A DNA stretch of 64,000 bases, taken from NCBI GenBank assembly GCA_040880525.1, contig JBBDIG010000048.1, positions 1 to 64,000 of the forward strand, in the 5' to 3' direction. This DNA is from Bacteroidia bacterium. Lineage in GTDB: Bacteria; Bacteroidota; Bacteroidia; CAILMK01; JBBDIG01. Made by a program: the position numbers and the translations under genes. Shown here in pieces: positions 30,542-63,925 of this stretch. The notes under the pieces were generated by a model. It ran no database searches, had not been told where the DNA came from, and was given only the letters and a program-made list of their open reading frames with translations. How positions within the stretch are numbered: position 1 is the stretch's first letter; each line of letters starts with the position of its first letter.

Positions 30542-33500
30542 CTACCGGATAAGGGTAATTGTTCCGGTATGCTCTTTCTCTTCTTGTCCTGCCAGTTGGT
30601 ATTTGAACAACATGTAATAGCCACCGGAAGGACATTCTGCACCGGTGTTATTCACCAGGCCATTCCAGGTATAAGTCCTCTCACTGCTTTCGAATACCTT
30701 TTCGCCCCAACGGTTAAAGATCACCAACTCATACATTAATTCACCCGCGATTTCGATCACGAAGTTATCATTGGTGCCATCGTTATTTGGCGTAAATACA
30801 TTGGGGATCACCAGTTCAATTTCCACGGTAACTACCTTACAAGTTCGGGCACTGCAGCCGCTTGCATTTTCAGCAGTCAGGCATACTTCAAAGGTGCCTT
30901 CTCCCGGGAACTCCTGGATAAACGGATCCTTGCTGGTGGTTTCAAAGCTGTCAAGAATGTTTCCTGTATTATCCCTGATCACCCAGATATAATTACTGGC
31001 CCCGGAAGAGGTATTGATCAGGTTACGTTTTGTAACGTCAGCACCATCCTGTATTTCAAAACCAACAGCTACCTCTGATACAGTTACATAGCCGCTATCC
31101 ACCCGCGGACAATTAGCCCCGGTAGGAGTATACCGTATCAGGTATCTGCCAGGTTCATCATAAGAATGGGTAACAACTTCACCTGAAGCCTGCGTACCGT
31201 CACCGAAATCCCAGTTAAACTCATCATAATCCGGATCAGCATCATCCATGAAAGTGATTTCGTCACCCGGGCAAACAACTGTGTCTGACATAGTAAAGTC
31301 TACTGAATCGGGAGGGTGAACAATTACCTCAAAACTGTCCCTGTTCGGATCATCGGGATCAGGCCATTCTGCCTTACATTCTCTGTAACGCCCCTGCACA
31401 GGATCATAAATACTGTCTGTAGCGGTTACTGAAAGATAATAGGTGCCGGGTTTATCATATCTCAGCGTTACGATTTCTCCTTCCGGATCTCCATTGGGAC
31501 CCCAATAAGAGGTATTCCGATTGGTACCATCACCCAAGTTCCATTGAAAACCCCGGCCCTCGGTTTTATCACTTAATATCCGCACTTGTAGCTCGAATGG
31601 AGCGCAGCCATCATTTTCACCTATAACCTCGAACATCGGTTTAGGACCTATGAGCGACATATCAATGCTAGTAGTATCGGCACATCCTGTCGTATTTCTC
31701 ACAATGAGGGTAATAGTATAGTCTCCGTTACTGGTATAAGTGTGAATTGGATTCTCCAGGAAACTGTGCGTTTTGCCATCTCCAAAATCCCAATCCCAAT
31801 GGGCAATTGAATCTAAAAGAATGGAAGGATTAGGATTGTCATCCACGGTCACGGAGCTGTCAATAAATTGTATCGGTTTGGGAACGCAGTAATAAATTGA
31901 CGAATCCAGGTGAATGCTGGCATCTACACCTACAACGTGAATATATTTGGTATTGGCAATCCTGCAACCAAGGCTATCCGTGGTCCATAACGTTACAGGA
32001 TAAGAACCGATAGCATTGTAGGTAAATGAAGGATCGGGAGTATCAAAGGTTTCGGCTACGCCATCACCATCCAGATCCCACTCAAATGATTCAAATTGAT
32101 TTGGAGGTTCAGGTGTCCAGGTACGATATCCTTCCGGATCATCCCAGTAGGGCTTAGGATCGTAACCCAGCGGGTAATTGATCGGATCCCAACGGTGCCA
32201 GTAGAATATAGAATCCTTAAAATGAACAGTTTCACCTACGCATATTACTGTATCACTCCGGAAAAACTCATTAATATGTCCCACAAAGACCTGCTGTGAA
32301 GTACTACGGGAACAGCCAAAATAGCTTTTCATGCTTCCTGCAATAGTGTAAACACCAGGCTCCTCAAAATTTTTGTGCAAAGTATCCGCAAGATCCAGCA
32401 TCACAACCTTTTCCACGATATCAGCATTGGGCTCACTAAGCAAGTCGGCCAGCGTAACCGGTTTAGGCTGACCACTCTCCACACATCCAATTCCGGAATA
32501 ACAGGTGAAACATGCTGTATAGGTCTTCGTGGGAGGCACTGTGTTATTATCCAGTGTATATTGGGTTGTATCACAAACTGTAAATATCGTGTCCGGGGAT
32601 ACCTGCGGTGTATCGGTAATGGCAAGATCAGGTTGAAGCAACAAATCTTCCATCTCCTCCGGTATAGTTCCGCACCCAAACTCAGGGAAGCTGAGGCAAT
32701 TCGTATAAATCTTTGTGGGTGGATTGGTAGTATTATCCATTGTATACTGCGTTGTATCACATATCGTATAAACGGTATCCATTGCTTTTGTAAAAGTATC
32801 AGTAAATAACGTAATAGGAGGAGCTAAAGGATTGGTAGTATTGAATGCCCTTATAATGTACTCAACAATACCCGTTTGGCTCTGGTTCAGCGGAGTAATG
32901 TCCACAGGCTGAGGCGGGCAAAAAACGGTAAGTGGTGAGTCAGTGGCAGGATCAATAAACTCAAAGCGTGGGTCAAGATCCGGGAAGTATTTGTAATTGT
33001 GATACCAGGCCGTATCATAGCAATCGCCAGTTTTAATGATTAACCCAATGGTTTTGCAGCCGGGGGTATTATAGATCCATTGCATACCTAGCAATTCCAG
33101 AATTGGCTTTGGTACCCAGTTAAATTCTTTATAGACATCTTTAACAGTGGTATAAGTATCGGTAATCGGGTCATAAACTTGTCTTTCACAGGAATCCTGA
33201 AGTGTTTGATCATTCGCAGAGTCAAATACCATTGCAAACCACTCCCGGTTACAATCTGGTTCTGTTTCGCTCAGGTCAATTTGCTGCGGATAATCCAATC
33301 CAAGACAAGGGGCACCATGCAACTGGACGCCCTTATTTCCCTCATAGCTAAAGGTTTGAGGTCCTTGCCATGGGGGCGTTCTGAGTTGTCTTTCCCAGGT
33401 CATGTGGCCCGGATAGTTTATGTCATCATGGCCGGCATGAGGCGCTTCCTGTACAATGGTTTGGGTTGCCGTAGAAGTACATTGGGTAACCGTATCAATT

Positions 33501-35356
33501 ACTCGCAAGCTAACGGTGTAGCAACCTGAATCCTCAAAAAGATGCCAGGGCTGTATCTCAGTCGAAAACTGACATTTCACATCCGGATTGGCAGTGGTAG
33601 AAGTACACTGGTCGCCATCTCCGAAGTTCCAGAAGTATTGCATACTATCACTGCCCCAGGGGTAGCTTGGAATTTTACAACGATCAGGATAGCCCGCAAA
33701 TGGTGGAGTATTATCAATAGCGTCATAAAGCCTGTATTTCTTCGAGTTGTTGACAAACCTTACCAGGTTTGGACCACTGCAGGAAGGAGTAAACATATCT
33801 GTATCATGCATACTGATCATGTTACATACTCCGGAATAATTTGTAAATATTGGCTCCGTAGGAATAGGATCATTGGCCGGATCCCATTGAAAGGTTCCTG
33901 TAACCAGAATTGAGTCCAGTTCATACTCTGTTCCTGTAGGTATAAGAGTAAAGGTAGTATCAATCATCATTAAAGGTCCGCAAAAGGTAGTATCCACCGT
34001 AAAGGTGTCAATTGCGGAATTGCAATAAACGTCCGTGGAGCTTACGATGAAAGGAGAAACGCTGTCAATGGTTACATGGTCCACCGTGGTAATTCCTAGA
34101 TTCCTCCTGAAACATTCATTGTACTTCAGCTTCTCTAGATAACTAATAGGAATGGGTGCAGGCCTCCGGCAATTATTAGGTGGAGGAGGATTAAGATTAA
34201 TGATTGCCTGCGGACCTTTTAAATCTACGTAAGCACAAAATGTCGTGTCCCTGATACAATTGGGTTCTCTGATCTGTAATGAAATATCATATAATCCCGG
34301 GCCTCCCATAAAGGCATGAGAAGGTGACCACGATTCATCATTGGTATTTTGATTACCGCTTGCCGGATCTCCAAAATTCCAGTTCCAATAGAATGCATTT
34401 GGCCGTGGTGTCTGGAAAAACTGAATGTTGTTTCCAGTGTAACAAATTGGCTGATTGGGATTAAATGTAATGTCGAAATAGTAAAAGATATTTTGGGCAC
34501 CCCCGGTTAACTGGAATGTATCAATACAGCCAAAATCATTTTCAATAATGAGCCGCGGATTAAAGCTTCCATCTCCCGTAAAGCGATGCTTAAAGCCATC
34601 CCAGGCAGTATCGAACTTCACTCCATCGTCAAGATCCCATTCCCATCTGATTATATTCTTTCCGAATGAATCGGTTTCATTCACAAAAGTTACATCTGTA
34701 TATGGACAACTTATGTTATAGTTGGTAGAAAATTTGGCATTAAGAGGCTTTAATACCTCAATGGCCTGATCTCGTTGTATGAAACCGATACATCCATTGG
34801 CATCAACAACCTCAAGCGTAATGGTAAAGGTATCGCTGTTACCATAAGAATGGCAAGGGCTGGTTGCCGTGGATGTGTCTCCGTCTCCAAAGTCCCAGAG
34901 ATACTTGACAATAGGCGAATTGCTGCTACCTACTGTTGAGTTATCAGTAAAACAGAAATAGTTTCCTTCAAAACATTGCTTGAGATTAGTCGGAAGGATC
35001 ATGTCTGCAGTAGGATTGTCAAAAATCTTAATATCCCCGGTGAGTACTGTGGTACAGCTATCCCCGTTGCTCAAATAAACGGTGAGCTTGGGTTTATATG
35101 TACCGGGCACCGAATACTGATGTTCTTCAGGTGAAGGATTTTGATTGTTTTGCACAACCACGGTCTGGTCTCCAAAATCAAACTTGAAAGAAGTTGGCGT
35201 CTCAGAGCCGGTGTAGTTGGCAGTGAAAGTGATGGTTGTAGGCACACAACCTTCCAGGGTCGAGGCCGTAATTGTGCATTGCCCGTAGGCACTGCTGCTG
35301 CTGTAAATTACAGCAAGAATCATCAAGGTTAGGTAGTTAAAGATCCGCTTCATCAT
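30542..35356 (-). CDS. Giant PKD-repeat surface protein with T9SS type B (CHU_C) domain
   Basis: A 1604-aa protein with a Sec signal peptide (residues 1-25, ending SSAYG-Q). It carries at least eight PKD-type beta domains, recognised by W-[DN]-[FL]-G-D-G-like cores near residues 62, 155, 240, 325, 575, 1110, 1195, 1275 and 1382. A Thr/Asp/Pro-rich segment at ~855-970 holds two imperfect ~60-residue repeats (D-T-x-[YF]-T-[IV]-C-D-T-T-Q-Y-T). The last ~95 residues are the gliding-motility-associated C-terminal domain: V-I-P-N-V-F-T-P-N-N-D-G-T-N-D-N-F, F-N-R-W-G-E-K-V-F and a final G-T-I-T-L-I-R. That domain is the type B T9SS sorting signal. Predicted to be exposed on the surface or released. 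It lies 41 bp after the membrane sigma-regulator-like gene. Confidence 0.9.
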   Translation of the reverse strand: MMKRIFNYLTLMILAVIYSSSSAYGQCTITASTLEGCVPTTITFTANYTGSETPTSFKFDFGDQTVVVQNNQNPSPEEHQYSVPGTYKPKLTVYLSNGDSCTTVLTGDIKIFDNPTADMILPTNLKQCFEGNYFCFTDNSTVGSSNSPIVKYLWDFGDGDTSTATSPCHSYGNSDTFTITLEVVDANGCIGFIQRDQAIEVLKPLNAKFSTNYNISCPYTDVTFVNETDSFGKNIIRWEWDLDDGVKFDTAWDGFKHRFTGDGSFNPRLIIENDFGCIDTFQLTGGAQNIFYYFDITFNPNQPICYTGNNIQFFQTPRPNAFYWNWNFGDPASGNQNTNDESWSPSHAFMGGPGLYDISLQIREPNCIRDTTFCAYVDLKGPQAIINLNPPPPNNCRRPAPIPISYLEKLKYNECFRRNLGITTVDHVTIDSVSPFIVSSTDVYCNSAIDTFTVDTTFCGPLMMIDTTFTLIPTGTEYELDSILVTGTFQWDPANDPIPTEPIFTNYSGVCNMISMHDTDMFTPSCSGPNLVRFVNNSKKYRLYDAIDNTPPFAGYPDRCKIPSYPWGSDSMQYFWNFGDGDQCTSTTANPDVKCQFSTEIQPWHLFEDSGCYTVSLRVIDTVTQCTSTATQTIVQEAPHAGHDDINYPGHMTWERQLRTPPWQGPQTFSYEGNKGVQLHGAPCLGLDYPQQIDLSETEPDCNREWFAMVFDSANDQTLQDSCERQVYDPITDTYTTVKDVYKEFNWVPKPILELLGMQWIYNTPGCKTIGLIIKTGDCYDTAWYHNYKYFPDLDPRFEFIDPATDSPLTVFCPPQPVDITPLNQSQTGIVEYIIRAFNTTNPLAPPITLFTDTFTKAMDTVYTICDTTQYTMDNTTNPPTKIYTNCLSFPEFGCGTIPEEMEDLLLQPDLAITDTPQVSPDTIFTVCDTTQYTLDNNTVPPTKTYTACFTCYSGIGCVESGQPKPVTLADLLSEPNADIVEKVVMLDLADTLHKNFEEPGVYTIAGSMKSYFGCSRSTSQQVFVGHINEFFRSDTVICVGETVHFKDSIFYWHRWDPINYPLGYDPKPYWDDPEGYRTWTPEPPNQFESFEWDLDGDGVAETFDTPDPSFTYNAIGSYPVTLWTTDSLGCRIANTKYIHVVGVDASIHLDSSIYYCVPKPIQFIDSSVTVDDNPNPSILLDSIAHWDWDFGDGKTHSFLENPIHTYTSNGDYTITLIVRNTTGCADTTSIDMSLIGPKPMFEVIGENDGCAPFELQVRILSDKTEGRGFQWNLGDGTNRNTSYWGPNGDPEGEIVTLRYDKPGTYYLSVTATDSIYDPVQGRYRECKAEWPDPDDPNRDSFEVIVHPPDSVDFTMSDTVVCPGDEITFMDDADPDYDEFNWDFGDGTQASGEVVTHSYDEPGRYLIRYTPTGANCPRVDSGYVTVSEVAVGFEIQDGADVTKRNLINTSSGASNYIWVIRDNTGNILDSFETTSKDPFIQEFPGEGTFEVCLTAENASGCSARTCKVVTVEIELVIPNVFTPNNDGTNDNFVIEIAGELMYELVIFNRWGEKVFESSERTYTWNGLVNNTGAECPSGGYYMLFKYQLAGQEEKEHTGTITLIR

Positions 35357-35397: not shown

Positions 35398-36813
35398 TTA
35401 ATCGCGGATTAATGCGATTGCACCCGTTTGGGTGACTGGCCTGTGCTGCCCTTGCAACTTATACTGCAATACATAGTAATAAGTGCCTGAAGGCAGGGGT
35501 TTACCGTTCCGGCTGTCAGTGCCGTCCCAGCTATTGCTTTTTTCTTTGCTATGGAAAACTTTATTGCCGCTCCGGTCAATTACCGAGAATTCAAAATAGG
35601 TTTCACCACTGATCAGGACTTCAAACCGGTCGTTGATGCCATCTCCGTTCGGTGTAAAAGTATTGGCCAGATCCAGTGAACTTTCAGCTTCTATTTGCAG
35701 CCTGTCAGTAAAAGTATCCCGGCACCCGTAATCATTAATAGCGATCAGTGAAGGACGATAAAGACCACTGAGATTATAGCGGTGTTGCGGGCTTAAATCA
35801 TTGGAAACCGTTCCGTCTCCAAATACCCACCGGTAGCTGGTTGCTTCACGGCTCGTATTGTTAAAGGCAATGTTCGGCATTCGTGTTATATCCGTCACAA
35901 ACTCTGATTCCGGAGTTTCATGAACCGTCAGTGTGAGGATCGCTGTATCGGTACTGATTCCATTTATTTTCTTGATAATCCAAACTTGTTTCTCTCCGGC
36001 TGAGGTAAAGGCGAGTTCGGTATTTTTCTCAAGCTTTTCGATTATTCCTTCCCCCTTCAGCCAGTAAAAAGCCGCTTGTGGCGCGGAAGAGGTGGTGAGA
36101 ATCACACTGCTATTGAGACAGAGCGTTTTAGCGGTAAGTTTCAAATCCTCAACTGCAGCCCGGGTATTATCCGAAATAGTAACGGACCTGTCCTGAACTC
36201 TCTTCAAATCTTCTGTCGTCTTATCGGTTGGCAAAGGCGGGTTTGCCGGCTGTTCTACATTTACAGTTTGCCTGCTTTGTTCCCGGATTCTTTGGGGTTG
36301 CTGTCCGGAAGTCTGGTCAGAGGAATTTCTCAGATCGCTATTCCTGTCGTCATTTCCGGATAACGATTCCGTTGCCGGGACCAGGGTTTCTTTGCTGGAT
36401 TTACTCTGTTCAGTAATAGCCGTTTCCTTATCATTTTCAGGATTTTGACGGGCCGGAGCTTCATCTTCCTGATCTATATATATTCCTTGTTCCATTCCAA
36501 GCTCCTTGTTCGGCTCTGGTAAGTTTATCTCCGAACTTGTTTCAAGATCAGTACTGTTGTTCTCATTGCCAGACATTATTACGATGATAGCAATAAGGGC
36601 TGCAGTTAAAACGGCCACCACAGAGGAAGCTACCACAAACGAACCGGAACCACTTGCAGCAGTTCCACCTGCTGTGCTGCCGGTTGCAGGCAGATGTGAT
36701 TTCACCGCGTTCCAGTCAGCATCCATTTCGGCAGAAGTATGGGCCGCTTCCTTCCCGTCAAATGCTTCACGGAAAAAGTCATCAAACCTCTCTATGTCTT
36801 TTCTGCTGCTCAT
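35398..36813 (-). CDS. Anti-sigma-like membrane protein fused to PKD and CHU_C domains
   Basis: A 471-aa protein. Residues 1-60 are a charged cytoplasmic segment (R-F-D-D-F-F-R-E-A-F-D-G, then D-W-N-A-V) like the N-termini of Bacteroidota anti-sigma factors. One membrane helix follows (about 59-82, V-V-A-S-S-V-V-A-V-L-T-A-A-L-I-A-I-I-V). Then come a long low-complexity linker, an Ig-like domain (about 215-300), a PKD domain (Y-R-W-V-F-G-D-G-T) and a C-terminal CHU_C domain (N-T-F-T-P-N-G-D-G-I-N-D-R-F ... G-A-I-A-L-I-R). It has no cleavable signal peptide. The ATG overlaps the stop of the upstream sigma gene as ATGA, so the two are translationally coupled. Probably an envelope-sensing regulator of that sigma factor; this is inferred from architecture and position. 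Confidence 0.85.
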   Translation of the reverse strand: MSSRKDIERFDDFFREAFDGKEAAHTSAEMDADWNAVKSHLPATGSTAGGTAASGSGSFVVASSVVAVLTAALIAIIVIMSGNENNSTDLETSSEINLPEPNKELGMEQGIYIDQEDEAPARQNPENDKETAITEQSKSSKETLVPATESLSGNDDRNSDLRNSSDQTSGQQPQRIREQSRQTVNVEQPANPPLPTDKTTEDLKRVQDRSVTISDNTRAAVEDLKLTAKTLCLNSSVILTTSSAPQAAFYWLKGEGIIEKLEKNTELAFTSAGEKQVWIIKKINGISTDTAILTLTVHETPESEFVTDITRMPNIAFNNTSREATSYRWVFGDGTVSNDLSPQHRYNLSGLYRPSLIAINDYGCRDTFTDRLQIEAESSLDLANTFTPNGDGINDRFEVLISGETYFEFSVIDRSGNKVFHSKEKSNSWDGTDSRNGKPLPSGTYYYVLQYKLQGQHRPVTQTGAIALIRD

Positions 36814-37364
36814 TTTCTGATAATAAGACGTTGTTTAATTGCTTCCTGAAGTTGGTGACGCGCTTTATGGAGCTGGCTTTTGGATGTACCGGCACTTATT
36901 CCCAGCATCTCTCCTATTTCCTGATGGCTAAACCCCTCTATTACATAAAGATTGAAAACCGTCTGGTATCCATGCGGTAATTCCTGCACGCATACCAAAA
37001 GGTCTTCATAATCAAGTTGTGTCAGAATTTCCTCTTCAATAGAAAGATCATAGACCTTGTCCACATCCACCTTGAAGGGTTCGGAAACCTTTTTCCGGTA
37101 CTTGTCAATGGACATATTTACCATGATCCTGCGAATCCAATGCTCCAGCGAACTCTTAAAATTGAACGTGTGGAGATTTTCAAAAACCTTAATGAAGCCA
37201 TCCTGCAAAGCATCTTTGGCATCGTCCCGGTCTTTCGCATATCTGTCGCAAATGGCTAACATCTTTGAATAATATAATTGAAACAATTCCTTCTGGCTTT
37301 GCACATCACCATTGATGCACTTCTCCACAAGTGATATGTCTTTCTGTTTTCTTTCATCAGGCAT
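36810..37364 (-). CDS. ECF-type RNA polymerase sigma factor
   Basis: A 184-aa sigma factor. Region 2 has A-K-D-A-L-Q-D-G-F-I-K-V-F and W-I-R-R-I-M-V-N-M-S-I-D-K-Y-R-K (about 50-100). Region 4 has L-P-H-G-Y-Q-T-V-F-N-L-Y-V-I-E-G-F-S-H-Q-E-I-G and the HTH G-I-S-A-G-T-S-K-S-Q-L-H-K-A-R. The end of region 4 closely resembles the partial sigma gene at 63906-64000. It is the first gene of a three-gene operon with the fused membrane regulator (ATGA overlap) and the 1604-aa T9SS protein, which suggests it responds to, or drives, cell-surface cargo production. Confidence 0.93.
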   Translation of the reverse strand: MPDERKQKDISLVEKCINGDVQSQKELFQLYYSKMLAICDRYAKDRDDAKDALQDGFIKVFENLHTFNFKSSLEHWIRRIMVNMSIDKYRKKVSEPFKVDVDKVYDLSIEEEILTQLDYEDLLVCVQELPHGYQTVFNLYVIEGFSHQEIGEMLGISAGTSKSQLHKARHQLQEAIKQRLIIRK

Positions 37365-37574
37365 TTTTGCTGCCTTTGGTGTGTATGACGAAGCCTTATT
37401 TCTCAGGGTTGCCCATGCTCCTGCTTTTATTTCTAAATAGTTCCAGTTTCTCTAAAAAAATTTCCCGCTGAAATTCAACTGCTCATTTTCAAGCATTTAT
37501 AAATCAATCTGTCGCTGGCATTTTATCACAAAAACTCCGGTCAGGCTTTACCTTATGGATAACCCTAAATTTTC

Positions 37575-51071: not shown

Positions 51072-51698
51072 GCTGGTGCGAGTTTAACGGAATAATCTGA
51101 AATGACAATGGAAGATTATGCAGTGTAACTCGTACCTTTATCAGCCATGAGCAGGAAATACAAGTTCTACAATAGTGAAGGCCTATATTTTGTGAGTTTT
51201 GCTACCGTTTATTGGCTGGATGTATTCGTAAGAGAAGAATATTGTGAGATTTTAGTGCAGAGCCTAAAATATTGTCAGAAAGAAAAAGGAATGGAAATAT
51301 TTGACTGGTGCATTATGCCAAGTCATGTGCATTTAATTTTTAGTGCTACTGATCATAATCCTTCTGATCTGATGAGGGATTTTAAGAAATATACTTCAAT
51401 AGAATTGCAAAAAGCTATAGGGACAAACCCGGCAGAAAGCCGAAAGGAATGGCTGCTTTGGATGATGAAGCGTGCCGGGTCAAAGAGCAGTAATGTTAAG
51501 AATTATCAGTTTTGGCAACAGCATAATAAACCGATTGAACTGTGGAGCAATGCGGTTATTGATCAAAAGGTTGAATATATTCACAACAATCCGGTCGAAG
51601 CTGGCTTTGTAAGTGAGCCACAGCATTGGAAATACAGCAGTGCAAATGAAAATCAACTTATTAAACTGGCTGTGCTCTAAAGGTACGAGTTACCCTTT
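51072..51698 (+). mobile_element. RAYT element, copy 1
   Basis: 627-bp unit from GCTGGTGCGAGTTTA to the start of copy 2. The left end holds GCTGGTGCGAGTTTA and, ~35 bp on, GTAACTCGTACC, which can pair as a hairpin. The transposase gene follows. The right end keeps only the first half of the REP hairpin (GGTACGAGTTAC at 51682-51693), after which copy 2 begins, so copy 2 interrupts or replaces the right end of copy 1. Confidence 0.85.
51147..51680 (+). CDS. REP-associated tyrosine transposase (copy 1)
   Basis: A 177-aa HUH/Y1 single-strand nuclease of the IS200/IS605-like TnpA_REP family. The HUH motif is in M-P-S-H-V-H-L-I-F (about residues 57-65), and the likely catalytic tyrosine is in V-E-Y-I-H-N-N-P-V-E-A-G-F (about 143-155). 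The protein starts MSRKYKFYNSEGLYFVSFAT. RAYTs cut and join REP hairpins and are thought to spread them; both ends of this element carry such hairpins. It differs from copy 2 by one residue (Gln versus Arg before H-W-K-Y-S-S), so duplication is recent. The reading frame is intact. Confidence 0.94.
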   Translation: MSRKYKFYNSEGLYFVSFATVYWLDVFVREEYCEILVQSLKYCQKEKGMEIFDWCIMPSHVHLIFSATDHNPSDLMRDFKKYTSIELQKAIGTNPAESRKEWLLWMMKRAGSKSSNVKNYQFWQQHNKPIELWSNAVIDQKVEYIHNNPVEAGFVSEPQHWKYSSANENQLIKLAVL

Positions 51699-51773: not shown

Positions 51774-52307
51774 ATGAGCAGGAAATACAAGTTCTACAAT
51801 AGTGAAGGCCTATATTTTGTGAGTTTTGCTACCGTTTATTGGCTGGATGTATTCGTAAGAGAAGAATATTGTGAGATTTTAGTGCAGAGCCTAAAATATT
51901 GTCAGAAAGAAAAAGGAATGGAAATATTTGACTGGTGCATTATGCCAAGTCATGTGCATTTAATTTTTAGTGCTACTGATCATAATCCTTCTGATCTGAT
52001 GAGGGATTTTAAGAAATATACTTCAATAGAATTGCAAAAAGCTATAGGGACAAACCCGGCAGAAAGCCGAAAGGAATGGCTGCTTTGGATGATGAAGCGT
52101 GCCGGGTCAAAGAGCAGTAATGTTAAGAATTATCAGTTTTGGCAACAGCATAATAAACCGATTGAACTGTGGAGCAATGCGGTTATTGATCAAAAGGTTG
52201 AATATATTCACAACAATCCGGTCGAAGCTGGCTTTGTAAGTGAGCCACGGCATTGGAAATACAGCAGTGCAAATGAAAATCAACTTATTAAACTGGCTGT
52301 ACTGTGA
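51774..52307 (+). CDS. REP-associated tyrosine transposase (copy 2)
   Basis: A 177-aa HUH/Y1 transposase, identical to the copy at 51147-51680 except Arg for Gln in P-R-H-W-K-Y and a different stop codon (TGA versus TAA). The HUH (S-H-V-H-L) and Tyr (E-Y-I-H-N-N-P) motifs are intact. Because this copy retains the full right-end hairpin it is the better candidate for an active element. Tandem RAYT genes are unusual, since members of this family are normally single-copy domesticated genes. Confidence 0.94.
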   Translation: MSRKYKFYNSEGLYFVSFATVYWLDVFVREEYCEILVQSLKYCQKEKGMEIFDWCIMPSHVHLIFSATDHNPSDLMRDFKKYTSIELQKAIGTNPAESRKEWLLWMMKRAGSKSSNVKNYQFWQQHNKPIELWSNAVIDQKVEYIHNNPVEAGFVSEPRHWKYSSANENQLIKLAVL

Positions 52308-60308: not shown

Positions 60309-62687
60309 TTATTTAATGATTACTTTTTGGTTGGCGCCAGAGACAATATCCCGCACAAAGTACATTCCTGGAGGAAAGTGCTCAATGTTCAGCGTTATTT
60401 CTTCCCGGCCCATTTCCAATTGCCGCCACAGCCTGCCGGTGACATCATATATATGCAGGGTCAATCTTCCTTTAGCCGCAGTATTGCGAATGTGCAATAC
60501 ATCCTGGGCGGGATTGGGATAGATCGCAAAAGGTACAGGGATAACTTCTTCAGGCTCGTTAATTCCAGTTTGCAGTTTCACCACGCTTACCGTTTGATTG
60601 GTAATGATGGGGCTGTTATAATCAAAATAAATATAAGCGCGGTTTAGAATAGTATCGCCCACCGCTATTCCGGGGCGTATGCCTGCGGTGTACCTGATGA
60701 AGCCGTGGCTTTTCGGCTCGTTGATATGGCTGTCCGGCAACAGGATATTGTCAAAAGTCCAGATCAGCGTATTGTTCCGAATCTCAAGGCTGTAAGGATG
60801 GCTGCTGTTGTTCATTACCAATTCAGTAAGCGGAAGATTGGCATCCACGGTATCCACGATCACAACCTTATAAGCCGTATCTGTGCCCGTATTCTGGAAG
60901 CGGATCAGATAATCAATTTTCCGGGTGTCCGGGGCAATATTGCCTTCAGGACTGGATTGCTTGTCGTTGGGATCATAGGATGCTACGATCCTTTGGCAAA
61001 GCGTGTCATAATTGTCGGGAGGAAACGAATCTCCGGCTACGGGGCTGATGAACGCAGAGAAACAGAGGCTATCGCCCATAGCCAGAGAATTGGATATTTC
61101 AAAAGTTATGGTCAGCGAACCTTTATCAAACATCGCCAGCGGATCTAAATTCCAGGTAATTTCATTTCCGGAAAGATTATCATAAGGAAGCGAGACGGAA
61201 TCAAGGGTGGCACCTGCCGGGAAATTTAATTTTACGCTTGCACCTGTGATGGTATCAGTACCTGTATTCTCCCAGTCCAATTTATAAGTTTCAGTAAATC
61301 CCCTGCGGGCTCTGAAACCGGTAAAACCGGTAATATTCGTTCGCAAATCCCGAATGCCAGGAACAGGCGAAATAGCAAAGTCAAGGGTATCTACACGAGA
61401 TTGTCCCTGAAGCTGAATAGAAAGCGTGTCGGACTGGCAACTGTTTATTTCCCAATATTTTTTATGAAGCGTAATTTGAAAATTTCCAGGATACAATACT
61501 GCTAAATATTTCCCGGAAGAATTTACATTCATAAAATGGTTTATAGGAGAAACTTCAATTAACGCTTGTTCCACTATTTCTTCTGCGGGATCTTTTTCGC
61601 AATTTTTATTGATATCATAATACACTAATCCGCTTACCAATGATAGCGAATCGTAGTAAAGCCGGTAGATTTGCTTGTCGCTATGCTTTGTACCGTAAAA
61701 AGAATATGTATAGAGGTTATCTTCAAAGGTGAAAACAATCGGATATGAAGGGGTATCAGCTTGCATGAGGCTAGGACCTTCGGCCCATTCCATTCCTGTC
61801 CATGTATAGAATACAGTATCAGGTCCCCAGCCTGCACTCCAAAGATTTCCCTTATGTTCGGCAAAGGAAGATGCGGTTTCATTATTAAGGTGCCTCCATA
61901 TTCCATTATAGTAATAATCTGTTGTACCAAATCCTAAATTTGGCTCGAAGCCTGACGTAAATATGGTATCCTGATATTCATACATTATTTGTCCTGATAA
62001 TTTAAGAATATGACCCACGGTATCCCATTTGGATCCATTCCATGTTTCCAAATGTGTAGCCCAAATGTTATTAATAGTCACAAATATTTGATCCAAGATA
62101 TACAAGGTATCAGCGTGAACAAGAATATCCGTGACATGATATATCATTTGTGAATCACTGGTTCGGACAGGTTGCCACTCACTGCCATCCCATAGTGCAA
62201 GATTGGCTGCGCTGTCAGTTCCAGCCTTCTGGAAGTTCCCACCCGCATATAGCTTTCCCTGGTATACTTCAAGGTCATTAACATAGGGACCGAATGGCGA
62301 GAATATGTCCTGTCCATAAGGATCTCCGGTTCCTGCACTTTTCCAGTTCTGGCCATCAAACCGGATTACAGTAGTTGCAGTAGGTATTGATGGTATTGAA
62401 TCGAAATATCCGCCTAAATACAATTCATTCTGATAAAACTTCATTGAATTAACAGATGCCAAACCTTCATAAGGTAACCGGCCCAACACCGCCCAAAAAA
62501 AGGTATTCCATTTTGCTACTTCTAAGGTTGATGAATCTGTATTGAAATACGCCACATAAAGTTCATTATTATGGACAGTGGTTGCGGATGGTACTGTGGG
62601 AAATGCCGCCCCTGCAGGAACCCACACCTGTGCGTTCATTACAAAACAAAACACGAGGGAAATAAAAGTCATGTAAAATATTTTCAT
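60309..62687 (-). CDS. Secreted protein with T9SS type A sorting domain
   Basis: A 792-aa exported protein with signal peptide (MKIFYMTFISLVFCFVMNAQ). The first ~370 residues form Kelch/WD-like beta blades: repeated L-Y-[VLAI]-[AG]-G-[GY]-[FN] and W-[ND]-G-x-x-W phrases, such as A-L-W-D-G-S-E-W. A short linker then leads to a DUF11-like beta domain (about 470-690; G-T-D-T-I-T-G-A-S-V-K-L, I-V-A-S-Y-D-P-N-D-K-Q, I-R-F-Q-N-T-G-T-D-T-A-Y). The last ~75 residues are a type A T9SS sorting domain (F-A-I-Y-P-N-P-A-Q-D ... G-M-Y-F-V-R). It begins 8 bp after the membrane regulator-like gene, so they form one operon. Predicted to be secreted; role unknown. Confidence 0.87.
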   Translation of the reverse strand: MKIFYMTFISLVFCFVMNAQVWVPAGAAFPTVPSATTVHNNELYVAYFNTDSSTLEVAKWNTFFWAVLGRLPYEGLASVNSMKFYQNELYLGGYFDSIPSIPTATTVIRFDGQNWKSAGTGDPYGQDIFSPFGPYVNDLEVYQGKLYAGGNFQKAGTDSAANLALWDGSEWQPVRTSDSQMIYHVTDILVHADTLYILDQIFVTINNIWATHLETWNGSKWDTVGHILKLSGQIMYEYQDTIFTSGFEPNLGFGTTDYYYNGIWRHLNNETASSFAEHKGNLWSAGWGPDTVFYTWTGMEWAEGPSLMQADTPSYPIVFTFEDNLYTYSFYGTKHSDKQIYRLYYDSLSLVSGLVYYDINKNCEKDPAEEIVEQALIEVSPINHFMNVNSSGKYLAVLYPGNFQITLHKKYWEINSCQSDTLSIQLQGQSRVDTLDFAISPVPGIRDLRTNITGFTGFRARRGFTETYKLDWENTGTDTITGASVKLNFPAGATLDSVSLPYDNLSGNEITWNLDPLAMFDKGSLTITFEISNSLAMGDSLCFSAFISPVAGDSFPPDNYDTLCQRIVASYDPNDKQSSPEGNIAPDTRKIDYLIRFQNTGTDTAYKVVIVDTVDANLPLTELVMNNSSHPYSLEIRNNTLIWTFDNILLPDSHINEPKSHGFIRYTAGIRPGIAVGDTILNRAYIYFDYNSPIITNQTVSVVKLQTGINEPEEVIPVPFAIYPNPAQDVLHIRNTAAKGRLTLHIYDVTGRLWRQLEMGREEITLNIEHFPPGMYFVRDIVSGANQKVIIK

Positions 62688-62695
62688 GGCAGTTT

Positions 62696-63925
62696 TTATT
62701 TAAATAATTCAGTTGTGATTAAAAGCGTAGCGTTTATTTTGAAAGCCTGCGGAACAAGCTTTACTTGCTCCTGCTCCGAAAGCAGGTTTCCATACCGGTG
62801 GTAGGTGGGTTCCAGTTCTATCGCCAGGCCATTGCCAAACCGGTATCCAATGCCCATTCCCACTTTTGCATTTGTACTCCAGCGCCCGAAATTATCCGGC
62901 TCCATTTTTCTGTAAGACAGCGTAGTGCTTTCGAGTTGCGCACCATCGGCATCCAGCATTTTCATAAAGCTGAAACCCAAACTTGCCCGCAAGTAATAGC
63001 GATCGGAGATATTAAAGTTGTAGCCCATTTCTAAAGGAATTTCAATGTACTGGTAACGAATGATGGTGGATGAATCAATCTTTTCAGCCGAGGCGTTTGG
63101 CAGCGTAATGTAGCCCAAAATATTACGGGTTGCGGAATCCACCACCGCAATTTTATTTTTATAGAAATCATAGTTCATCCGGTTTTCATAGCGGGTATAT
63201 TGAATTCCCGCTTTAACTCCCAGGGCCGGCAGAAGATTGTAGCGCAGCACAATTCCGGCATTAATTCCCGGCCTGGCCGCTCTCGCGGATTCCTGCAACC
63301 GCAGGTAATCCTCATGTACCCGCGCAGGCTCCGCTGTCTGCTCTCCCGGATCCAATATTGCGGTGCCGGCCGTTATGCCAAACTGCAGCCCGTTTGATTT
63401 GGGTTTTGTTTGCTCCTCTGCCTCTTTTTCCGGGTACGCTTTTAAAGTAGGTGGAATGACCAACACAACTGTGGATTTTATGCTTAATTCATTCGCCATA
63501 AGCGGAAACGGGTACAACGGTTTTCCTTGTTTTAGCGGGTTTTCATTTTTAATTTTATCATTTATTTGGTTTCTGCTATTTCTTGTTGATTTTAAAGTGG
63601 GAACTGAAGAATTTCCGGAATCCACAATGGTTTCTTCTTTCATTACCGGAATTGATTGCTGCGGCTTCACAATTTCTCCTGAAGCCATTGGCCGGGCTTC
63701 TGATATTTTCGGCATCTCATCAGGACGCTGCAGCCACAAAATAGAGGAGCCAATAGCTATAAGAGTCAATAAGCCCGTCAGCAAATAAGGCCATAGCAGC
63801 TTCCGCTTGTTCCTGCCATGATACCGGAGGCTAAACTCCCGCCATGCCTCAGGTGCTGCAGGAGCGGCATAGCCTTTCAGCTTTCCTGACAGGACTTTGT
63901 CCAGTCTATGAGGTGCATTTTTCAC
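62696..63925 (-). CDS. Anti-sigma-like membrane protein with beta-barrel-like C-terminal domain
   Basis: A 409-aa protein starting with GTG (63925). Residues 1-40 are a charged cytoplasmic segment (L-D-K-V-L-S-G-K-L-K-G-Y, W-R-E-F-S-L-R) like anti-sigma N-termini. One membrane helix is at about 45-65 (L-L-W-P-Y-L-L-T-G-L-L-T-L-I-A-I-G). A ~110-residue linker leads to a C-terminal domain of about 235 residues with the OMP_b-brl/PorT beta-strand pattern (G-I-T-A-G-T-A-I, I-Q-Y-T-R-Y-E-N-R-M-N-Y, Y-I-E-I-P-L-E-M-G-Y-N-F). A barrel on an inner-membrane anchor is odd. The start overlaps the upstream sigma gene by 20 bp. Probably an envelope-linked regulator of that sigma factor, by analogy with 35398-36813. 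Confidence 0.82.
   Translation of the reverse strand: MKNAPHRLDKVLSGKLKGYAAPAAPEAWREFSLRYHGRNKRKLLWPYLLTGLLTLIAIGSSILWLQRPDEMPKISEARPMASGEIVKPQQSIPVMKEETIVDSGNSSVPTLKSTRNSRNQINDKIKNENPLKQGKPLYPFPLMANELSIKSTVVLVIPPTLKAYPEKEAEEQTKPKSNGLQFGITAGTAILDPGEQTAEPARVHEDYLRLQESARAARPGINAGIVLRYNLLPALGVKAGIQYTRYENRMNYDFYKNKIAVVDSATRNILGYITLPNASAEKIDSSTIIRYQYIEIPLEMGYNFNISDRYYLRASLGFSFMKMLDADGAQLESTTLSYRKMEPDNFGRWSTNAKVGMGIGYRFGNGLAIELEPTYHRYGNLLSEQEQVKLVPQAFKINATLLITTELFK

Follow-up and report, generated by a model that had tools for sequence, protein, structure and literature searches.

A protein of 471 amino acids, encoded on the minus strand at positions 35398-36813 of a 64,000-nucleotide stretch of Bacteroidia DNA (the window hereafter), is predicted to be a membrane-anchored anti-sigma factor with a C-terminal T9SS type B domain. 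On the basis of its sequence it can be described as a Dma-like anti-sigma factor in which a T9SS domain stands where Dma proteins have a barrel. We propose that it acts as a non-exported, cargo-like periplasmic sensor which, through docking and sigma release, would couple the state of T9SS to the transcription of cargo genes, a proposal that in our judgement hangs evenly in the balance. The observations that carry it are established at the level of the DNA and protein sequences, and comprise the architecture of the protein, its conservation, the homology of its N-terminus, the loss of a tryptophan from the R-W-G motif, and a conserved promoter that recurs at cargo genes.

The anchored CHU_C protein and its operon

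The C-terminal domain of the 471-aa protein (CHU_C, residues 381-471; 35401-35673, on the minus strand like all features below unless stated) is recognised by the profiles that characterise T9SS type B cargo, namely PF13585 over residues 381-470 (E=3.6e-20, 72 bits, cut-off 27) and TIGR04131 (E=1.5e-14, 54 bits, cut-off 35). It is preceded by Ig-like and PKD domains (approximately residues 223-375; 35689-36147), which appear as strands in the structural model and of which the PKD domain lies well over its curated cut-off (PKD_4, 5.3e-11), and by a disordered tether of some 140 amino acids with low pLDDT (approximately residues 81-222; 36148-36573). Hydropathy and AlphaFold2 place a membrane helix at approximately residues 61-80 (36574-36633), on the single hydrophobic segment of the protein (residues 61-79, mean hydropathy 2.81), which is followed by low-complexity sequence and preceded by a polar N-terminus of about 57 residues. 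Approximately residues 1-45 (36679-36813), with two predicted helices, are assigned by HMM homology and AlphaFold2 as a putative sigma-binding domain. The AlphaFold2 model contains helices at residues 3-18, 27-38 and 63-80, then the Ig-like, PKD and CHU_C beta domains; its mean pLDDT is 60, with values mostly between 75 and 96 in the beta domains and below 50 over residues 42-222. A search of PDB folds with this model returned generic Ig/PKD matches only, headed by the Aureispira grappling hook protein, and indicated no function.

The first-pass annotation had described a CHU_C domain on a protein with an N-terminal segment ahead of a single membrane helix, a description that both profiles, hydropathy and AlphaFold2 confirm. 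In place of the Sec signal peptide of type B cargo, the protein carries an uncleaved-looking helix behind its polar N-terminus, and it is predicted to be anchored in the membrane with the N-terminus uncleaved, probably as an anti-sigma factor. Among 36 proteins of the anchored CHU_C design, the length ahead of the helix ranges from 40 to 85 residues. A positive-inside test on these 36 proteins was not significant (K+R 2.0 before the helix and 1.5 after it; p=0.23), and we infer the N-in topology from the sigma linkage and from CHU_C being an extracytoplasmic domain.

The genome contains 49 CHU_C matches. Among the complete CHU_C proteins, the long N-terminus before the helix is unique to the 471-aa protein, and the remaining ones open with a signal peptide (median beginning of the h-region, residue 12). 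The other matches are fragments or short ORFs, and one signal-peptide case is lipoprotein-like.

The gene for the 471-aa protein starts within the end of an ECF sigma factor gene, with which it overlaps by 4 nt (36810-37364; 184 aa; Sigma70_r2 2.8e-12, Sigma70_r4_2 5.6e-15, TIGR02937 1.3e-27). On its other side, after a gap of 41 nt, lies the gene for a giant PKD-rich type B T9SS cargo (30542-35356; 1604 aa; PKD_4 3.8e-78, CHU_C 2.5e-19) with a signal peptide and an intact R-W-G motif. No porP/sprF-like gene adjoins this operon of sigma factor, anti-sigma factor and cargo. The sigma/anchored-CHU_C pair is kept, full-length and in the same layout, in ten of the 12 genomes of the order, the two that lack it being G008 (67% complete) and G010. 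Identity among these orthologs is about 25% for the anti-sigma proteins versus 40-52% for the sigma factors, and therefore the architecture is conserved more than the sequence. The claim of the first-pass annotation that the protein is not a usual cargo is borne out by this sigma-paired operon, kept across the order, and by the signal peptides of the other complete CHU_C proteins. The third operon gene of relatives codes for a very large PKD protein, which is a homologue of the 1604-aa cargo where checked and elsewhere was assigned by position. A further case of the sigma/anchored-CHU_C layout is found in G035, from another family of the class. The adjoining cargo gene is a feature of this order and of a few more, and most CHU-type operons outside the order (GTDB loci) are without it. 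Elsewhere in the window, 51147-51680 and 51774-52307 (plus strand) are tandem, nearly identical 177-aa ORFs of a REP-associated transposase-like type, a recent duplication.

A common chassis and an altered type B domain

A scan of GTDB with an alignment of the sigma factor yielded 80 loci, at which 77 directly downstream genes could be classed by the C-termini of their products: 25 CHU_C, 22 beta-barrel (20 with Pfam support, in some cases weak, and two by similar ends only), two with a type A T9SS domain, and 28 short or truncated. At these loci the downstream proteins nearly always combine a short N-terminus containing a conserved W, one helix and a variable C-terminus. An HMM built solely from CHU-type N-termini finds, at E<=1e-3, 18 of the 22 barrel-type and 24 of the 28 short sigma-linked proteins, with 1 of 1160 background ORFs, and the chassis is therefore homologous across these classes. 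By this sequence criterion, the CHU_C, barrel and type A T9SS domains are three putatively outer-membrane-directed C-termini on one homologous chassis. The CHU_C domain ends no more than 13 residues from the C-terminus in every CHU-type protein of the GTDB loci, and lies 123-308 residues from the helix. At least six changes of the CHU label are required on the tree of sigma factors, the strongly supported branches being still compatible with a single origin. SprA was found with 25 of 25 CHU-type proteins versus 43 of 47 of the other classes, and its presence has no discriminating power.

The Dma family was reportedly first described by Pardue (2024, PNAS). Dma (dual membrane-spanning anti-sigma) proteins are built from an N-terminal sigma-binding domain, a helix, a tether and an outer-membrane-directed C-terminus, which sits in the outer membrane (PMC13088901); their sigma partners are of group ECF21. 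The 471-aa protein has no C-terminal barrel, and it is therefore regarded as Dma-like rather than as a Dma. A barrel-type sister of Dma layout is encoded in the same window (62696-63925; OMP_b-brl_2 3.7e-14), with its sigma factor just past the window end (G000:C48:63930-64478) and a gene for a type A T9SS cargo behind it (60309-62687), so that two C-terminal designs occur in one window. The genome also encodes three more barrel-type sisters and one short sister. On contig 49 of the same genome (L226:1968-3395; G000:C49), a sigma-linked membrane protein of 475 aa has a type A T9SS domain at its C-terminal end (Por_Secre_tail 7.1e-9), and similar cases at L132 and L135 show type A domains, too, placed on anti-sigma-like proteins.

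The CHU_C domain of the 471-aa protein differs from that of cargo at residues 414-416 (35566-35574), which align with the R-W-G of cargo domains and read R-S-G. In an alignment of 33 anti-sigma CHU_C domains with 82 domains of a cargo set, the tryptophan of this motif is present in none of the former versus 71 of the latter (Fisher 1e-19, kinship ignored). The arginine is kept in 8 of the 33 anti-sigma domains, while the cargo set has R in 91%, W in 88% and G in 98%. The anti-sigma set was gathered through sigma genes and was therefore not selected on the tryptophan; moreover, three held-out domains (the orthologs of G009 and G003, and L266) are also without it, for a total of 36 out of 36. 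The other signatures of the domain are kept by the anti-sigma proteins, namely the W and the G of WDG (33/33 each), the P of FTPN (30/33) and the Y/F of GxY (33/33). The 11 cargo-set domains without the tryptophan, read by eye, include four type A cross-hits, one FlgD-like protein and one lipoprotein. A tree of CHU_C domains is compatible with one or several losses of the tryptophan. In Flavobacterium johnsoniae, secretion needs all five conserved type B motifs (PMC12618676), one of which may or may not be exactly R-W-G. From the aligned residues we infer that the anti-sigma CHU_C domain keeps its fold but is not meant for export; the loss of the tryptophan could also mean that it no longer binds T9SS at all.

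Two further proteins bear on the distribution of this residue. L266:1072-3062 (G001:C15) is part of a sigma/anti-sigma pair of a different family, has a CHU_C match (PF13585, 1.7e-7) with R-S-G rather than R-W-G, and suggests a second, independent fusion of CHU_C to an anti-sigma factor. The short product of L043:1696-2202 (G000:C38) combines a lipoprotein-like signal with a CHU_C domain that is likewise devoid of the R-W-G tryptophan.

The promoter and the predicted regulon

A predicted ECF promoter of the operon, GGCAAC-N17-CGTC, is located at 37387-37413, about 22 nt ahead of the sigma start codon. CAAC-N17-CGT, with the exact 17-nt spacer, is found upstream of the sigma gene in nine of the ten orthologs of the order, G005 being the exception; this position, together with its resemblance to a classic ECF promoter, implies autoregulation of the whole operon. 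Upstream of the sigma-linked operons among the GTDB loci, CAAC-N16-18-CGT occurs in 13 of 25 CHU-type versus none of 22 barrel-type cases, and the promoter is therefore not common to the whole superfamily.

GGCAAC-N17-CGT has 18 matches in the genome, three of which are intergenic and no more than 50 nt from a gene start: those of the operon itself, of one type B cargo gene and of one type A cargo gene. Among the 43 CHU_C genes of the genome, the spacer of 17 occurs in five, and seven other spacers account for two in total (P ~1e-5). The genome-wide pattern CAACY-N16-CGTC, whose Y and closing C had been adapted to the cargo sites, gives 27 sites. Ten of these are non-self sites in promoter position, with five before type B and two before type A cargo genes (7/10), where about 6% would be expected for T9SS genes (some 200 T9SS-domain matches among 3,300 genes, the gene number being an estimate). 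The reversed control pattern counted higher in the genome than the real one; the motif is thus not enriched as such, and the link to T9SS cargo is drawn from where the sites lie and what kind of gene follows them. Among relatives, 61 sites were examined and 22 of them lie in promoter position, one being that of the sigma operon. Of the other 21, seven precede genes with a T9SS domain and two precede genes for long truncated proteins with a signal peptide. Exported-looking products are encoded by 19 of 23 downstream genes versus 69 of 198 in the background (p=1.6e-5).

Further genes of the predicted regulon, mainly in relatives, encode an FKBP isomerase, TPR proteins (in G001, G004, G007 and the genome under study), DUF1573 proteins and an alkaline phosphatase. 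TPR genes with a signal peptide and an upstream CAAC-N17-CGTC are found in four genomes (L324:4908-6062, L356:381-1544, L362:5666-6832 and L306:198-1478), and the TPR proteins are possibly a conserved member of the regulon. Taken as predictions, these sites make it appear that the genes switched on by the sigma factor include T9SS cargo genes, but the motif might also be recognised by another sigma factor encoded in the genome.

Proposed mechanism, alternatives and known systems

In the proposed mechanism, the N-terminus of the anti-sigma protein would hold the ECF sigma factor at the inner membrane, while its flexible tether would span much of the periplasm. The CHU_C domain would serve as a non-exported copy of the type B cargo signal and dock on an outer-membrane component of T9SS, the likeliest candidates being a PorP/SprF-like carrier and the SprA translocon. 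Since type B cargo remains bound to its own PorP/SprF-like carrier (PMC9143113, PMC12618676, PMC12635249), the carriers are plausible docking partners, and the genome contains SprA and six PorP/SprF-like matches. The domain would compete with real cargo as it samples carrier or translocon, and would thereby signal a free or a loaded export path; this would set the amount of sigma factor released. A change at CHU_C would lead to release or degradation of the anti-sigma protein, the favoured direction being that free capacity allows docking, docking releases sigma and released sigma yields more cargo. The freed sigma factor would then transcribe the operon that encodes it, the giant cargo included, as well as other T9SS cargo and envelope-protein genes. 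Such an arrangement would amount to a split Dma, the fused barrel being replaced by non-covalent docking to a barrel on another protein. The suggestion of the first-pass annotation that CHU_C acts as a T9SS sensor for the sigma factor is partly supported by the retained and altered domain, the sigma pairing and the predicted regulon with T9SS cargo genes, the last being a connection that the annotation had not drawn on. In its broader and more tentative form, to which we give rather less credence, the proposal extends to a widespread class of Bacteroidota anti-sigma factors with a disarmed type B signal, in which a dummy cargo competes for carrier or translocon and secretion load sets cargo transcription.

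A different reading of the same chassis, unlikely in our view although it deserves attention, is that of a Dma-like anti-sigma factor whose CHU_C and PKD domains merely bind an envelope or surface ligand (a glycan, peptidoglycan or a misfolded protein), the T9SS origin of the domain being a matter of history. The absence of the conserved tryptophan from all anti-sigma CHU_C domains would fit such a sensor, as would the chassis common to barrel, short and CHU_C C-termini and the presence of FKBP, TPR and DUF1573 envelope proteins in the predicted regulon; it accounts less well for the conservation of the remaining secretion-domain signatures, the position of the domain at the extreme C-terminus, the addition of type A T9SS domains to the same kind of protein, and promoter sites that favour T9SS cargo genes. 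It has also to be considered, as an improbable case, that T9SS carries the C-terminus out to the cell surface and the N-terminus remains embedded in the inner membrane, giving a trans-envelope anti-sigma factor for which pulling is the signal, with a logic like that of FlgM. The 123-308 residues between helix and CHU_C suffice to cross the periplasm, Dma C-termini reside in the outer membrane (PMC13088901) and type B cargo stays carrier-bound at the surface (PMC12635249), but a tethered chain would remain in the SprA pore, and the R-W-G tryptophan is missing from all 36 domains, where mutation of conserved type B motifs stops secretion (PMC12618676). It is highly improbable that the protein is a normal T9SS cargo, cleaved at its N-terminus and secreted, whose signal region is exceptionally long or whose start codon was wrongly assigned, in spite of the PKD and CHU_C combination seen in many cargos; plain cargo and start-codon error were both rejected for the 471-aa protein on its long N-terminus, conserved in all orthologs, the overlap of its start with the sigma stop, the homology of its N-terminus to barrel-type anti-sigma proteins and the altered R-W-G.

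If the sensor mechanism is true, it provides a loop of one component, as the protein that inhibits a sigma factor bears the secretion tag of the proteins driven by that sigma factor; this would be a simple and testable arrangement present in many Bacteroidota, and would extend the new Dma class to non-covalent outer-membrane contact. Most of what is known about the matching of T9SS output to capacity comes from the PorXY-SigP system of P. gingivalis, and a T9SS-sensing anti-sigma factor would be a possible new regulatory principle. Moreover, the apparently non-exported CHU_C domains would form a natural set for working out the role of R-W-G, and the promoter motif would be usable to predict T9SS-linked regulons. 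The first-pass annotation had called the idea undescribed, which holds only in part: the chassis has been published as Dma (PMC13088901) and PorA-PorXY-SigP is a precedent (PMC7712824), whereas a description of a T9SS domain on an anti-sigma factor was not found in the open literature, which is not proof of absence.

Several known systems share features with the 471-aa protein. Type B CTD cargo has the same C-terminal domain family and most of the signature residues (PMC9143113, PMC12618676), but the 471-aa protein lacks a signal peptide and the R-W-G tryptophan and is membrane-anchored. In Porphyromonas gingivalis, the T9SS CTD protein PorA acts upstream of an ECF sigma factor controlling T9SS, in the PorA-PorXY-SigP pathway (PMC7712824). 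Common to that pathway and the mechanism proposed here is an ECF sigma factor that receives its signal from a protein bearing a T9SS C-terminal domain; PorA, however, has a signal peptide, is a surface protein in its own right and works through a two-component system, whereas the presumed anti-sigma factor carries the T9SS domain itself. The coupling of secretion competence to the transcription of secreted parts would be shared with FlgM of flagella, a soluble anti-sigma factor itself exported by the type III system, unlike the 471-aa protein with its predicted membrane anchor. The closest resemblance in layout is to Dma, with an adjoining ECF sigma factor, a short N-terminal region predicted here to bind sigma, one helix, a long disordered tether and a C-terminus putatively directed to the outer membrane, and with an N-terminus homologous to that of the barrel-type sigma-linked proteins of the GTDB set, on which this comparison was made. 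The two differ at the C-terminus, a beta-barrel in Dma and a PKD plus T9SS type B domain here, and in the regulon, which in Dma consists of vesicle and polysaccharide-utilisation genes and here, as predicted, of genes for T9SS cargo and envelope proteins.
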